DNA from: Rhodopirellula halodulae | GTDB lineage: Bacteria; Planctomycetota; Planctomycetia; Pirellulales; Pirellulaceae | Length of the DNA: 64,000 nucleotides | Direction of reading: 5' to 3' | Assembly: GCF_020966775.1 (NCBI RefSeq) | Contig: NZ_JAJKFV010000009.1 | Coordinates: 186,001-250,000, forward strand | Shown: piece after piece, positions 34,444-39,128 of the stretch | Numbering within the stretch: the first letter of the stretch is position 1 | Layout: every line of letters starts with the position of its first letter | Translations under genes and position numbers: made by a program | The notes under the pieces: model-generated | What the model saw: the letters and a program-made list of their open reading frames with translations, nothing else | What the model was told of the DNA's origin: nothing | Databases searched by the model: none

Positions 34444-34538
34444 TTGGATCTGGTACGGACCCCACGGGTTGAAGTCGATGGATTAATTTGGGCGGAGGAA
34501 ACGTTGTTTGGTTTCGCCCTCCTGCCCTCCAGCCTGCC

Positions 34539-37487
34539 ATGTCCCGCCCCAGCCTATTGTTTCGTCCAGTGCACGTCGGACGAGCATCGATCCGCAACGG
34601 ATGGTGCTCACAACACTTGCGATCACTCGTTGCAGTCGGAATTTGTGTCCGAGAAAGGCTTGCGTCGGCACAAGCCCGAAGCCTTGCCATGGCGAGTTTG
34701 TTAGTTGGATGTCTGCTGGTCACAATCGGTTCGCCAAACGCTGCTGCGGAACAACCGGCGTATGATTTGGTGCTTCGGGGCGGCAAGGTCATCGATGGGA
34801 CGGGGACTCCGTGGTATCGAGCCGACGTTGCCATTCGTGATGGCAAGATTGTTGAGATCGGTCGCATCGGAGCGGACCGGGCCAAGCAATCGATCGACGT
34901 CGATGGTTTGATCGTCGCACCGGGGTTCATCGACATGATGGGCCAAACGGCGACGCCAATGTTGCGGGACCAACGGTCCGCCATCAACTTGCTCACGCAA
35001 GGCATCACCACCATCAACGCGGGAGAGGGCTATTCCGCCGCGCCGGTTTCCGATCACGATGCGAAGTCGTTGGGTTGGAAGACGATGGCGGAGTACTTCC
35101 AGTTGTTGGACATGGAAGGCATGCCAGTGAACGTCGTCCAAACTGTGGGGCACACGCAAGTTCGCGAACTGGTGATGGGGGAAGACAATCGCCGCCCCAG
35201 CGAAGACGAACTGAAGCAGATGCAGGATCACGTTCGCGAAGGGATGCGGGCCGGTGCGATTGGTGTTTCGACCGCGTTGATTTATCCGCCGGCTGTTTAC
35301 GCGACGACGGAAGAGATTGGTGCGTTGGCAAAGGTGGCGGGTGAGTATGGCGGTCGCTACTACACTCACATGCGGAACGAGGGCGACCAGCTTCTGGAAG
35401 CGATCGACGAAGCCTTGCAGATTGGTCAGGTCGGAAATACACCGGTGCACATCTTTCATTTGAAAGCCGCGGGCCAATCGAATTGGGGCAAGATGCCGTT
35501 GGCGATCGCGACGATCCAGGCGGCTCGTTCGGCTGGCCAAGAAGTCACCGCGGATATCTATCCGTACATCAACAATGGGCTTGGGATTGATGCCTTGATC
35601 CATCCGAGGCACTTCGGTGAAGGCCGCGGCAAGTTCTTGCAGCGATTGGAGACCGATGCGGAGCTGCGTGCCGAAGTGAAGGAAGAGATCGAGACCACCG
35701 GTGGTTGGGAGAATTGGTATCGGCATGCCGGTTCGGATTGGAATCGCATCATCGTCGGCAAAACCAACCATCCGCAGTATCGCGAACATGTTGGCAGTTC
35801 CGTCGCGGCGATTGCAAAAGCCACCGGCGATGACGAATGGGAGGTTTTCTTTGGGTTGTGCACGTCCGCGACGTTCGCACTGCCAGAAACGATGACGGAC
35901 GCGAACAAGATTCTGGCGATGCAGCAGCCATTCGTTTCGTTCTGCACCGACGTCGGACCGGCGGGCGGCAACTACGGTGCGTCTCATCCAAGGTCCTACG
36001 GTGCTCTGCCGCGGGTTCTTTCGCGATACGTGCGAGGGTACGGCGCAATTCCGATGGAACGAGCGATCGCTCAAGCCAGTGCGGGGGCGGCCAGCGCGGT
36101 GATGCTGCGTGACCGAGGCCGGATTGCGGAGGGCTTGGCGGCTGATGTGATCGTGTTTGACGAAGACGAGCTGGCTGACCGTGCCACATTCGAGGAGCCG
36201 CACGCCGAGTCAGTCGGCATGAAGCACGTGATTGTGAACGGAACTTTGGTCTACACCGACGGCAAAGCCACGGGCAAACGTCCCGGCCGCGTTCTGCGAG
36301 GCCCTGGTTACGAACCAGTTGACTTTGCCAAACAGGCTCAGGTTGGCGATTCGCGAGAAAACTATGTTGAGTTGGACGGCGTCATTCAAGATTTCCTGCG
36401 GGAGAATCGGTTGCCCGGTGTTTCGGTCGCGATCTCCGAAAGCGGCAAGCTGGCTTACTCCAAAGGTTTCGGTTTCGCCGACGTTGGGTCTCGGGAGCTT
36501 GTCACGCCAGAAAGCCGTTTCCGGATCGCCAGCGTTTCTAAACCGATCACATCGGTTGCCGTGATGAGGTTGGTTGATGCGGGCAAGCTGTCTTTGGAAG
36601 ACAAGGTGTTTGACCTGTTGGACGCGGAGCCGCACTTGGAAGACGGAGCCAAATTAGACGAACGTCAAAGCGAGATTACGATTCAGCATTTGCTGCAACA
36701 TCGTGGTGGCTGGGACCGTAATCAGTCCTTCGATCCCATGTTCCGTGCCGTGCCATTTGCTGAAATGCTCGGCGAGGAACCTCCGGCCACGCCGCGGATG
36801 GTGATCCGAGTGATGCGTGGCAAGCCTTTGGACTTTGATCCTGGCGAGCGATCCGCGTATTCGAATTTTGGATATTGTTTGTTGGGACGCGTGATCGAGC
36901 AGGTGAGCGGGCAGGACTATGGTGAGTTTGTTCAGCAGGAAGTGCTGCGTCCGTTGGGAATCACCGACATGGAGTTGGGAGCCACACGTTTGGAGGAACG
37001 CAAGCCTCGTGAGGTGCGGTACTACGACCCCGCGATCGGAACGTCGGTCTTCGCGGATGATTTGAATTCCGAGGTGCCTCACGCTTACGGGGCATGGCAT
37101 TTGGAAGCGATGGATTCGCACGGTGCCTGGATCGCGACGGCGTCAGATTTGGTGCGATTTGGGGATGCGTTTTCGGACCCCAGTGATTGTCCCATTTTGT
37201 CGCGAGAGAGCGTGGAGGCGATGTTCGAACGCCCGGATGGACTGGCGGGGCACAAGAAAGATGGTGAGCCAAAGTCCAGCTACTACGGATTGGGATGGTC
37301 GGTCCGGGAAGAGGAGAGCGGCAAGCGATATTCGCACAACGGATCACTACCAGGGACCAACGCGATGTTGGTGCACCGTCCGGATGGACGAACGATCGCG
37401 ATTCTTTTCAATGCACGAGTGACCTGGAACAACGCTGCGGTGGTCGGTGGTTTGCTGCGACGTTTGGAACAGGTGCTGGATCGGTGA
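34539..37487 (+). CDS. Amidohydrolase (D-aminoacylase-like) fused to a serine beta-lactamase-fold domain
   Basis: Two enzymes in one chain of about 982 residues. The first 600 resemble N-acyl-D-amino-acid deacylases (DLVLRGGKVIDGTGTPWYRA, PGFID, ITTINAGEG, GRYYTHMRNEGD). The usual HxH metal motif after PGFID is replaced by MMGQTA, so the metal site differs. From about residue 620 there is a class C beta-lactamase/esterase fold with SVSK (Ser about 665), YSNFGYCLLG and HNG (third motif) in YSHNGSLPGT. A secretion signal probably lies at ASLLVGCLLVTIGSPNAAA. Starts are uncertain: ATG at 34539 or at 34689 (directly before the signal). Both domains could act on peptidoglycan or D-amino-acid derivatives; that is inference. 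Confidence 0.85.
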   Translation: MSRPSLLFRPVHVGRASIRNGWCSQHLRSLVAVGICVRERLASAQARSLAMASLLVGCLLVTIGSPNAAAEQPAYDLVLRGGKVIDGTGTPWYRADVAIRDGKIVEIGRIGADRAKQSIDVDGLIVAPGFIDMMGQTATPMLRDQRSAINLLTQGITTINAGEGYSAAPVSDHDAKSLGWKTMAEYFQLLDMEGMPVNVVQTVGHTQVRELVMGEDNRRPSEDELKQMQDHVREGMRAGAIGVSTALIYPPAVYATTEEIGALAKVAGEYGGRYYTHMRNEGDQLLEAIDEALQIGQVGNTPVHIFHLKAAGQSNWGKMPLAIATIQAARSAGQEVTADIYPYINNGLGIDALIHPRHFGEGRGKFLQRLETDAELRAEVKEEIETTGGWENWYRHAGSDWNRIIVGKTNHPQYREHVGSSVAAIAKATGDDEWEVFFGLCTSATFALPETMTDANKILAMQQPFVSFCTDVGPAGGNYGASHPRSYGALPRVLSRYVRGYGAIPMERAIAQASAGAASAVMLRDRGRIAEGLAADVIVFDEDELADRATFEEPHAESVGMKHVIVNGTLVYTDGKATGKRPGRVLRGPGYEPVDFAKQAQVGDSRENYVELDGVIQDFLRENRLPGVSVAISESGKLAYSKGFGFADVGSRELVTPESRFRIASVSKPITSVAVMRLVDAGKLSLEDKVFDLLDAEPHLEDGAKLDERQSEITIQHLLQHRGGWDRNQSFDPMFRAVPFAEMLGEEPPATPRMVIRVMRGKPLDFDPGERSAYSNFGYCLLGRVIEQVSGQDYGEFVQQEVLRPLGITDMELGATRLEERKPREVRYYDPAIGTSVFADDLNSEVPHAYGAWHLEAMDSHGAWIATASDLVRFGDAFSDPSDCPILSRESVEAMFERPDGLAGHKKDGEPKSSYYGLGWSVREEESGKRYSHNGSLPGTNAMLVHRPDGRTIAILFNARVTWNNAAVVGGLLRRLEQVLDR

Positions 37488-37500
37488 GAGTGCGCGTGAG

Positions 37501-37618
37501 CCCCTCTCCCCCGACCCCTCTCCCCGAAGCGGGGCGAGGGGAGCCAGGGTATTCGCTTACACACAATATCCAGGCTCCCTTCTCCCCCGTGGGGGAGAAG
37601 GGCTGGGGAAGAGGGGGC
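37501..37618. repeat. Large structured repeat, copy 1 (flanks DUF559 gene)
   Basis: A CT/GA-rich element of about 118 bases. It contains a hairpin (CCCCTCTCCCC, GAAGC, GGGGCGAGGGG), a GGGAGCC/GGCTCCC pair around a 25-base AT-rich loop, and a second hairpin (CCCTTCTCCCC, CGT, GGGGAGAAGGG). Its outer ends are nearly complementary. Copy 2 lies at 38049-38167, with the same stems and a different loop. Weak similarity continues another 25-30 bases to the right. Confidence 0.9.
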
Positions 37619-37675
37619 AGGCACCTGAAAAAACTTCGATCTCTCGAGCGGCTTTGATAGCGAAGGTGAATCAAG

Positions 37676-38104
37676 ATGCGACGCAATCCGGAGCGACAAG
37701 CCGAACGCATTGAGTTTGCTCGAGAGCAGCGTCATCAGGCGAATGAGTTTTCGGTGGATGTTTGGCAAATGGTTCGAGCCGGTCGAATGCTTGGCGAGAA
37801 GTTTCGTCGCGAACATCCGTTGGGAAGTTACACGCTCGACTTTGTTTGCCTACGTCTGCGTTTGGTGATTGAGGTGGATGGGAAGCATCATTTGAACGAG
37901 GAAGGTGTTGAGCGTGATGCGGTGCGAGATCGGTTTCTGAAGGATCGTGGCTTTACGGTTCTGCGAATTCGTGGGTTTGAGGTCACGCAGGATGGGGCAG
38001 CGGTGCGTCGTCGAATCGAGGAGGTGGTGAGGCGGTTGCAGGGTGATGCCCCCTCTCCCCCAACCCCTCTCCCCGAAGCGGGGCGAGGGGAGCCAGGGAT
38101 TTAG
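37676..38104 (+). CDS. DUF559 endonuclease-like protein
   Basis: A 142-residue protein of the DUF559 family, related to very-short-patch-repair-type endonucleases of the PD-(D/E)xK group. It has an N-terminal helical segment (RNPERQAERIEFAREQRHQ), the strand FRREHPLGSYTLDFVC with Asp55, EVDGKHH with Glu66, Asp68 and Lys70, and a final strand VLRIRGFEV. The C-terminal 18 residues (PSPPTPLPEAGRGEPGI) are translated from the flanking repeat, and the stop TAG lies inside that repeat. The gene sits exactly between two copies of the same repeat, suggesting that the unit moved or spread as a cassette. Nuclease activity is inferred. Confidence 0.85.
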   Translation: MRRNPERQAERIEFAREQRHQANEFSVDVWQMVRAGRMLGEKFRREHPLGSYTLDFVCLRLRLVIEVDGKHHLNEEGVERDAVRDRFLKDRGFTVLRIRGFEVTQDGAAVRRRIEEVVRRLQGDAPSPPTPLPEAGRGEPGI

Positions 38105-38167
38105 ACAAAACCTAATCATCCAGGCTCCCTTCTCCCCTGTGGGGGAGAAGGGCTGGGGAAGAGGGGG
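38049..38167. repeat. Large structured repeat, copy 2 (overlaps DUF559 3' end)
   Basis: Same organisation as the copy at 37501-37618; the hairpin arms are conserved, while the central loop (about 21 bases) is unrelated between copies. The left end CCCCCTCTCCCCCAACC matches the reverse complement of the right end at most positions. Confidence 0.9.
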
Positions 38168-38351
38168 CTGGAGCCTGAAGCAATTCCGATCGCTTGAGAA
38201 AGACGATCAGTTCGGTGCAATTCATAGGCTGGAGCGCTGAGCAATACGGTCATTTCCAAAGCCCCGGCTCCCTCAACATCTCCTGACGAGCTACGGTGAG
38301 CACCAGTTGGTTCGAACGATCGTTTCGTCGCTTTGATTCGGAGGTTGTTGG

Positions 38352-39128
38352 GTGAGTTCGAGTGACGCTTTGTGCCGAGTGGGGACGCATATTGAGTCTC
38401 GGAGGCACGTGGTTTGGTTTCCGCATGCGGGGGGCGCGACGGCTCCGCTGTTCAAGCAAATGCGGGCTCTATCGGCCAGTCCATCCACGCTGCCAAAGCT
38501 CAATCTTTGGGCGGTTCGACTGGCGGGGCGAGAGTCGCGATTTTCGGAACCACTCGAGACCGAGATGGAGTCGTTGGTCGATACGCTAGCCCAGGATTTA
38601 GAACATCAATTCCAACCTGATGACGAACTCGTTTTGGTAGGACACAGCCTGGGGGCATTGATCGCGTATCGCTTGGCAAGCCGCTTTCTTCCAACAGACG
38701 CCGCCGCTTCGTGCCCGAGAGTGAAAGGCTTGATCGTGATGGGCAGCTCGCCTCCGATGATGTGGACTCAGAATCGAGACTGGTTGGACTGGGACGACGA
38801 TGCTTTTGCGGACGAACTGGATCGGCGTTACGGCGGTTTGCCGGCTGGGTTGAAGGACCATCCCGATGCGCTGACGATGTTTCTGCCCATTGTTCGAGCC
38901 GATCTGAAGTTGGCTCGTGGCGTTGCAGATGCCGACCATCCGGTGTTGTCCGTTCCGATTCGTGCTTTTGCGGGGGCGGACGATCAGGTGGCCAATCGGG
39001 TCAAAATGCAGGGCTGGCAATCGTTGACTCAGGCTGGGTTTTCGTTGCGTGTGTTGCCGGGAGGGCATTTCTTTCCTTTGCCAAACCTGAGCAAAATTCT
39101 GCTGACCGCGGAGTCAATGCTGGGCTGA
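38352..39128 (+). CDS. Type II thioesterase (alpha/beta hydrolase)
   Basis: A 258-residue protein of the GrsT/type II thioesterase family, which frees mis-primed carrier proteins of polyketide and peptide synthases. It has WFPHAGGATAPLFKQ near the N-terminus, the nucleophile Ser99 in GHSLGALIAY, Asp in FAGADDQVANRV, and His in LPGGHFFPLP. It starts with GTG and has no visible synthase neighbour; the only carrier domain in the window is on the acyl-AMP ligase at 22582-24918. The next gene begins about 100 bases on, in the same direction. Confidence 0.85.
   Translation: MSSSDALCRVGTHIESRRHVVWFPHAGGATAPLFKQMRALSASPSTLPKLNLWAVRLAGRESRFSEPLETEMESLVDTLAQDLEHQFQPDDELVLVGHSLGALIAYRLASRFLPTDAAASCPRVKGLIVMGSSPPMMWTQNRDWLDWDDDAFADELDRRYGGLPAGLKDHPDALTMFLPIVRADLKLARGVADADHPVLSVPIRAFAGADDQVANRVKMQGWQSLTQAGFSLRVLPGGHFFPLPNLSKILLTAESMLG

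Follow-up and report, generated by a model that had tools for sequence, protein, structure and literature searches.

Stand-alone DUF559 nuclease genes and triplex-motif repeats as the likely parts of a widespread bacterial cassette

Stand-alone genes for DUF559 proteins and structured repeats of the triplex-motif (TM) class are linked in many bacteria and diversify together. We interpret them as the two parts of a widespread, REPtron-like cassette with TM-class repeats as its ends and a stand-alone DUF559 nuclease inside, the nuclease being unrelated to that of the REPtrons. We regard this reading as likely and assign it a probability of roughly 0.68; cleavage and movement are inferred, and no cleavage data were found. 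The cassette is described here from Rhodopirellula halodulae, where it is contained in a stretch of 64 kb which was analysed as a whole and is referred to as the window (Table 1).

Table 1. Features of the DUF559 cassette in the window (positions count from the first base of the window)
Feature	Position	Strand	Remarks
Stand-alone DUF559 gene	37676-38104	+	142 aa, predicted Vsr/EDxHD-like nuclease fold; PF04480 92 bits
Upstream double triplex-motif element (tail-stem-loop-stem ... stem-loop-stem-tail)	37501-37618	no strand	repeat finding; ssDNA folding z -5.1
Gene-facing half-unit of upstream element	37577-37618	+	hairpin 37577-37602, tail ~37605-37618; inverted repeat
Outer half-unit of upstream element	37501-37546	+	partial matches elsewhere in the genome
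Downstream double triplex-motif element	38050-38168	no strand	gives last 18 codons and stop; ssDNA folding z -6.4
Gene-facing half-unit of downstream element (tail first, hairpin second)	38050-38095	+	sequence reading, repeat finding
TAG stop codon	38102-38104	+	within variable inner part of downstream element

The two elements of the window are arranged in direct orientation, with 549-550 bases from start to start. Their first 49 nt are 98% identical, and identity amounts to 88% along a stretch of 81 nt. The ATG of the DUF559 gene follows 57 bases past the end of the upstream element, and the downstream repeat begins at codon 125 of 142; therefore, 18 residues and the stop codon lie within the element. 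A preliminary description had claimed two copies of about 118 bases around a DUF559 gene, the first of them 60 bases before it, with the last 18 residues and the TAG derived from the repeat, and had assigned two GC-rich hairpins, an inner pair and nearly complementary ends to each copy. This was correct in nearly every detail: both copies and all of their structural features were confirmed, the codon positions supported the repeat-derived end of the protein, and the distance to the gene nearly held. It missed the membership of the repeat in the known BoxC/PIT/TM triplex-motif class. Searching positions 37000-38800 against Rfam yielded 21 matches at E <= 1, mostly to microRNA models, none of which reached the gathering score. 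The window also contains a 999-codon frame at 34488-37487, one half of which matches amidohydrolase families and the other half the beta-lactamase family, as well as a separate short repeat (ggctggagcctgaag / ggctggaagcctatgccac) near the cassette at 38166-38245, which is also present in relatives (L206, L207).

Each 118-base element consists of two half-units of about 45 bases in inverted order. A half-unit is composed of a hairpin (S-loop-S'), a short link and a tail T', which repeats S' in mirror order. For the gene-facing half-unit of the upstream element, the purine arm GGGGGAGAAGGG reads GGGAAGAGGGGG when reversed, and the tail holds 12 of these 12 letters exactly. One half-unit directs its tail toward the gene on both sides of the window gene. 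The inner pair differs between the two copies yet pairs in both of them (GGTATT/AATATC in copy 1, GGATTTAG/CTAATCATCC in copy 2); the earlier claim had been that conserved stems with a free loop indicate a maintained structure. The fold check proposed along with that claim was clearly passed by the whole elements, as none of 200 dinucleotide shuffles was equally stable as single-stranded DNA (z values in Table 1). Taken alone, the half-units of the first copy are only weakly more stable than shuffles (z -1.6 with 13 of 200 shuffles, z -2.1 with 8 of 200), as does a single E. coli unit (z -1.1), which counts against our main reading; values of z -4.2 and -3.1 were obtained for the second cassette of R. 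halodulae (see below).

The mirror order of the tail was compared with direct order in 70 arm-and-side combinations with asymmetric arms, many sides of which lack any tail; mirror order won in 31 cases, lost in 3 and tied in 36. Among 80 scored upstream units, the tail was on the gene side in 48 and on the far side in 12, while 12 were symmetric and 8 had no scored hairpin. In 47 of 91 cases, the reading frame extended into the matched downstream repeat or past it, so a repeat-derived protein tail is common. A single mismatch (T.C or G.A) recurs at one stem position in planctomycetes and in E. coli. Because a common one-mismatch form of TM has already been described (PMC4666352), we do not offer mismatch recognition as a mechanism.

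The repeats of E. coli to which the window elements are related by their plan were first described in the 1990s as BoxC and were later re-found as PIT and as TM (TM_ECO; Holder et al. 2015, PMC4666352). According to the same study, strain MG1655 contains 23 TM copies, TM loci are unstable between E. coli strains, the repeats are widespread, and the neighbourhood of TM sites never showed any remnant of a transposase or integrase. PIT elements are reported there to lack promoter or terminator activity, and a triplex of TM repeats was seen in vitro and was absent from the in-vivo footprint. Its main text uses neither the word endonuclease nor the word DUF. The class is defined by a second purine arm which can lie on the first in mirror order, with A or T on A (PMC4666352), and the window repeats fulfil its criteria (arms of 6-15 nt, a mirrored second purine arm, loops of 1-6 and at most one mismatch). 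The strict TM_ECO pattern has no match in the 64-kb window and is present within 500 bases at 13 of 80 DUF559 loci from across the bacteria (see below), the other 67 being without it at this distance. By their sequence, the window repeat and these 67 loci belong to the wider BoxC/PIT/TM triplex-motif class under the mirror rule; a triplex inside cells has not been demonstrated.

The DUF559 member of E. coli is ycjD, which is located between sapF and fabI, and its stretch is covered to at least 80% in 3365 of 5426 E. coli genomes. Behind ycjD, strains KE47 and 118UI carry two units each, and K-12 carries one intact unit and one tail-less remnant; all of the intact units (one in K-12, two each in the other strains) match the published TM_ECO pattern CCCTCNCCC N3-6 GGGNGAGGG N3 GGGNGAGGG letter for letter. 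The median number of unit places per E. coli genome is 18 (5375 of 5426 genomes), and 13 genomes identical to K-12 over ycjD contain 17-23. In a sample of 60 records spread evenly over 5,413, from which one fragment was dropped, the ycjD-positive genomes (n = 37) showed 15-32 unit places with a median of 23 versus 3-20 with a median of 5 in those with sapF only (n = 22; p 6e-10). This contrast is confounded by lineage, and some of the negatives (11-20 places) overlap with the positives, both of which weaken it as support for our main reading. The gcvP-ygfF and yggL-yggN sites share a gene-less composite of about 179 bases with 87% identity, which is ordered as hairpin-tail, about 30 bases and tail-hairpin and thus represents the cassette layout without the gene. 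In the open-access literature searched, no DUF559 paper was judged to concern repeats, and the papers found on BoxC, PIT or triplex repeats name neither DUF559 nor ycjD; the early BoxC and PIT papers were outside the scope of this search, and absence of the link from print is not proven.

We assessed bracketing by a motif-free local alignment of the upstream and downstream flanks, taking a score of at least 40 as positive; the top score with shuffled flanks was 32. The relatives, a set of 98 genomes, yielded 48 near-full-length stand-alone DUF559 genes for this test. With flanks of 500 bases, 46 of them were bracketed (41 of 48 in inverted order), the exceptions being L041 and a single member of the L044 array; with flanks of 300 bases, the count was 40 of 48 (36 inverted). 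After collapsing orthologous sites and tandem copies, 36 sites remained, of which 35 were positive at 500 and 32 at 300 bases. These counts exclude duplicates (L002, L020, L022), broken or partial genes (L042, L043, L053, L062, L063), genes at contig ends (L018, L025) and weaker partial matches. None of 30 loci of Uma2, another nuclease-fold family in the same genomes, was bracketed. The most closely matched control, 18 DUF559 domains that form part of long fusion proteins and were chosen by hand from the relatives, likewise gave no bracketed case.

The analysis was extended to the best 80 of 570 loci confirmed by DUF559 sequence alone, from across the bacteria. With flanks of 300 bases, 56 of 71 testable loci from 10 phyla were bracketed, compared with 2 of 141 shifted control windows, none of them inverted; with flanks of 500 bases, the numbers were 57 of 70 versus 3 of 136. 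Assigning phyla from the record titles, we counted bracketed loci in Planctomycetota (9/9), Pseudomonadota (29/38), Chloroflexota (5/7), Cyanobacteriota (3/4), Bacteroidota (2/3), Desulfobacterota (2/2), Nitrospirota (1/3), Myxococcota (1/1), Binatota (1/1) and Patescibacteria (1/1), and two of two loci without assigned phylum. Chance or base composition as the source of bracketing is ruled out by the Uma2, fused-domain, shifted-window and shuffling controls. Of the possible refutations named in the preliminary description, DUF559 genes mostly without flanking copies were therefore not found, and its question whether they are repeatedly flanked is answered positively in the relatives and across the bacteria.

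The order of the repeats is not strictly inverted, because 30 of the 71 loci reached the cut-off in direct orientation beside 46 in inverted orientation, some in both. The remaining 15 unbracketed loci count against the main reading, as do several DUF559 genes with repeats on one side only, which we recognised by eye downstream of ycjD in E. coli and of a Sinorhizobium gene and upstream of two Azospirillum brasilense genes. By the same inspection, the gonococcal gene (L176) has two direct copies of a structured repeat, one on each side. L103, L141, L145, L161 and others fail the two-sided test, yet have an exact TM_ECO unit no more than 500 bases away from DUF559, which indicates that one-sided cassettes exist in Gammaproteobacteria and Chloroflexota.

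The association between repeat and gene was quantified with the pattern CCCTCACCC-N1-5-CCCTCTCCC, of which 57 copies occur within 500 bases of 51 DUF559 genes (orthologs and tandem copies included) versus 0.31 expected, corresponding to a 184-fold enrichment. The other refuting result named beforehand, a repeat without preference for DUF559 genes, was thus not found either. The exact pattern accompanies 25 of the 51 genes, 20 of them on both sides, and the remainder have other repeat classes or none. Of the 98 relatives, 29 have a full-length DUF559 gene (E < 1e-20), and the pattern is present in 25 of these versus 22 of the 69 others (Fisher p 7e-7, not corrected for kinship). Two observations from these counts speak against the main reading, namely that only 57 of the 647 pattern copies in DUF559 genomes (8.8%) lie near the gene, and that those 22 genomes keep the pattern without a full-length gene, with 89 copies in G090, 41 in G078 and 37 in G055. 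One genome from a second genus contains two pattern copies. Where a genome contains more than one cassette, the best match of the ends was to the partner end of the same cassette in 20 of 24 cases (Wilcoxon p 2e-5). The similarities of repeat and DUF559 protein are correlated over 41 cassettes (Mantel rho 0.40, with 0.31 between and 0.64 within groups; p 0.0005 each). In one cassette of G010 (L023), the loops of both repeats show the same change, GGCTTCC to GGTTTCC in one and its complement in the other, which suggests that the cassette ends evolve in concert.

The genome of R. halodulae contains one further DUF559 match, on contig C29, which is also located between two inverted unit copies. 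These belong to a different subtype and lie about 30 bases before the ATG and 15 bases past the stop codon. Partial matches to the outer half-unit of the upstream window element, covering 43-55 of 130 query bases, are scattered over 8 further genomic places, including four on contig C30. The repeat type of the second cassette has only one weak match beyond its own two copies, and this lack of clear dispersed copies speaks against the main reading.

Evidence for a mobile unit comes from genome G087, which carries three cassettes (L026, L047, L048) between different neighbouring reading frames. Their pairwise homology of 74-77% begins and stops at the outer stems of the repeats or no more than 20 bases away from them; in sliding windows, identity was 85-100% for the repeats and about 75% for the gene. 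The criterion of dispersed copies with homology ending at inverted repeats is met, and a dispersed unit bounded by repeats is thus shown for this one genome; L026 carries an in-frame TAG, which is a point against the main reading. Spread of the cassette as a unit is supported because the G087 paralogs are bounded by repeats, cassette ends match each other and the protein diversifies together with them. This supports the earlier suggestion that repeat and endonuclease-like gene spread as a cassette in the manner of REP elements; action of DUF559 on the repeat, which was offered as inference, remains so, as cutting has not been shown. Tandem cassettes occur in G002, G054 and G033. In the last of these genomes, five near-identical DUF559 genes are arrayed at intervals of about 1.4-3.3 kb (L044, G033:C5:328900-340500), and a sixth, diverged copy (L053) lies outside it.

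At a site next to MoxR/DUF58 genes, six genomes from the genus carry the cassette, and neither gene nor repeat is found in G006, G008 and G009; two further orthologs (L186, L189) are not included in this reading. Arrays of 7-base tandem repeats (tagctgt, ctcctag and aactcgc types), whose number varies by species, are located just outside the cassette at L001, L018, L021, L023, L024 and L032, and they are missing from the three empty sites. As to the empty sites asked for in the preliminary description, sites free of gene and repeat occur, none of them base-exact, and no target-site duplication was seen at the compared sites, which are too diverged or rearranged. Several other candidates for an empty site were rejected. 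The window site has neither gene nor repeats in five relatives, but the upstream stretch is different; at a glycoside-hydrolase/sulfatase site, G004 has the repeats without the gene and G000 neither repeat; the E. coli gcvP site is rearranged; and at phnK-phnL of E. coli (L218), where 540 of 5362 genomes cover at least 80% of the stretch with the TM pair, two other aligned genomes carry different sequence without a clean gap. Three E. coli strains without ycjD (L200, L201, L203) contain genes for a multidrug MFS transporter and an outer-membrane efflux protein behind sapF, so there is no simple empty site either.

The window protein possesses all residues of the invariant columns identified by comparing 32 sequences (D55, E66, D68, H72 and D81), of which we take E66, D68, H72 and D81 to be the EDxHD motif; the criterion of a conserved E, D, H, D core is met. 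Its AlphaFold2 model (mean pLDDT 88.6) retrieved NGO0050 (3hrl, E 2.5e-8) and I-Bth0305I (3r3p, E 6e-4) with Foldseek, together with Toxoplasma mitochondrial ribosome proteins (best E 5e-4) and, more weakly, PvuRts1I (7e-3) and Vsr (0.04), and a profile search also found 3r3p (E 3e-5). The model thus predicts a Vsr/homing-endonuclease fold with a Vsr-like core; nuclease activity is inferred. For five orthologs at the MoxR site, the ten pairwise dN/dS ratios were 0.08-0.20, which shows purifying selection at the one site tested and indicates that the gene is kept for a function. The Pfam description of DUF559 still gives its function as unknown. For VsrA, a DUF559 protein of Caulobacter, a role as a nuclease in mismatch repair has been suggested (PMC12907096), and the EDxHD homing family is reported to include a cyanobacterial DUF559 gene (PMC9403480).

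The mechanism we propose for the cassette is inferred throughout. DUF559 would recognise the structure of hairpin plus mirror tail at its own ends when the repeat is single-stranded or supercoiled, and it would cut at or beside this structure. Repair may then copy the cassette, or a gene-less pair of repeats, into new intergenic places. Gene-less repeats, such as BoxC/PIT/TM of E. coli and the solo half-units of R. halodulae, would represent non-autonomous derivatives comparable to the REPINs of RAYT cassettes.

The main rival, which we regard as unlikely, is a homing process in which DUF559 introduces breaks at pre-existing solo TM repeats and the gene is copied in by repeat recombination, while the repeats spread by other means. 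In its favour, the nearest solved relative with a named function, I-Bth0305I, is a homing endonuclease, cassettes occur in genomes having solo repeats, the tandem cassettes fit recombination between direct copies, and G004 has repeats without the gene at one site. However, matching ends are more often inverted than direct, the three empty MoxR sites examined have no repeat, and the homology among the G087 cassettes takes in the repeats. It is still less probable that TM repeats merely constitute fragile or permissive landing sites where DUF559 genes persist as passive passengers. The reported instability of TM loci between E. coli strains (PMC4666352) and the many repeat copies without DUF559 nearby, which form the majority, would agree with such a passenger role, but none of the 30 loci of Uma2, which also has a nuclease fold, is bracketed, most cassettes own a matching repeat pair, and repeat and protein co-diversify.

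A third explanation regards the repeats as control elements, i.e. terminators or autoregulatory operators, of a domesticated Vsr-like repair nuclease. Purifying selection on the DUF559 gene and the mismatch-repair role proposed for VsrA of Caulobacter (PMC12907096) are compatible with it, but copies of the repeat are found far away from DUF559 as well as on each side of it, and PIT elements were reported to show neither promoter nor terminator activity (PMC4666352). We consider this explanation very unlikely. The two-part cassette is our preferred reading.

A bolder version of the cassette reading, for which we see the chances as balanced, would be an undescribed class of mobile elements in which a Vsr-type nuclease recognises triplex-capable DNA and moves its own cassette as well as gene-less repeats. 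If this is true, DUF559 would be the enzyme that moves the BoxC/PIT/TM repeats of E. coli, for which a mover has been lacking, as well as palindromic repeats of a similar kind elsewhere among the phyla. The cassette would then represent a second repeat-plus-nuclease system beside REP/RAYT, whose enzyme is unrelated and whose DNA structure is unusual. A long-known repeat without known mover gains a likely partner enzyme, including ycjD in E. coli K-12, the question of how BoxC/PIT/TM repeats arise and spread becomes testable at the bench, and DUF559 gains a testable function through its link to the repeats.

Compared to known systems, DUF559 resembles the EDxHD homing endonucleases, e.g. I-Bth0305I (3r3p), in fold and profile, but its gene stands alone in intergenic DNA with repeats around it. 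The family of the window protein also includes NGO0050 of Neisseria gonorrhoeae (3hrl) and YcjD of E. coli. The 3hrl sequence is the product of the gonococcal gene flanked by two direct repeat copies, which do not meet the TM_ECO pattern, and ycjD differs from the window cassette in having repeats on one side only. The cassette repeats share with BoxC/PIT/TM_ECO the succession of a C-rich arm, a short loop, a G-rich arm, a short loop and a mirrored second G-rich arm, whereas the cassette class is accompanied by a partner gene, comprises many types of stem, of which some have a structured second loop, and is distributed over at least 10 phyla. The CGTC-type REPs, which are reported without transposase, are likely different repeats, judging by their stems of 8-9 bp with a CGTC foot (PMC3733652). 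The closest parallels in organisation are the REPtrons or TIRtrons and the REPINs, which likewise consist of a small nuclease gene between structured repeats (PMC3733652, PMC3116915) and share the dispersed gene-less copies, the inverted doublets and the fit of the repeat type to the partner gene. The DUF559 cassette differs from them by lacking a GTAG tag in the units examined by eye, by a Vsr-like nuclease that does not meet the criterion of an HUH enzyme with catalytic tyrosine, and by the mirror tail carried at its ends.
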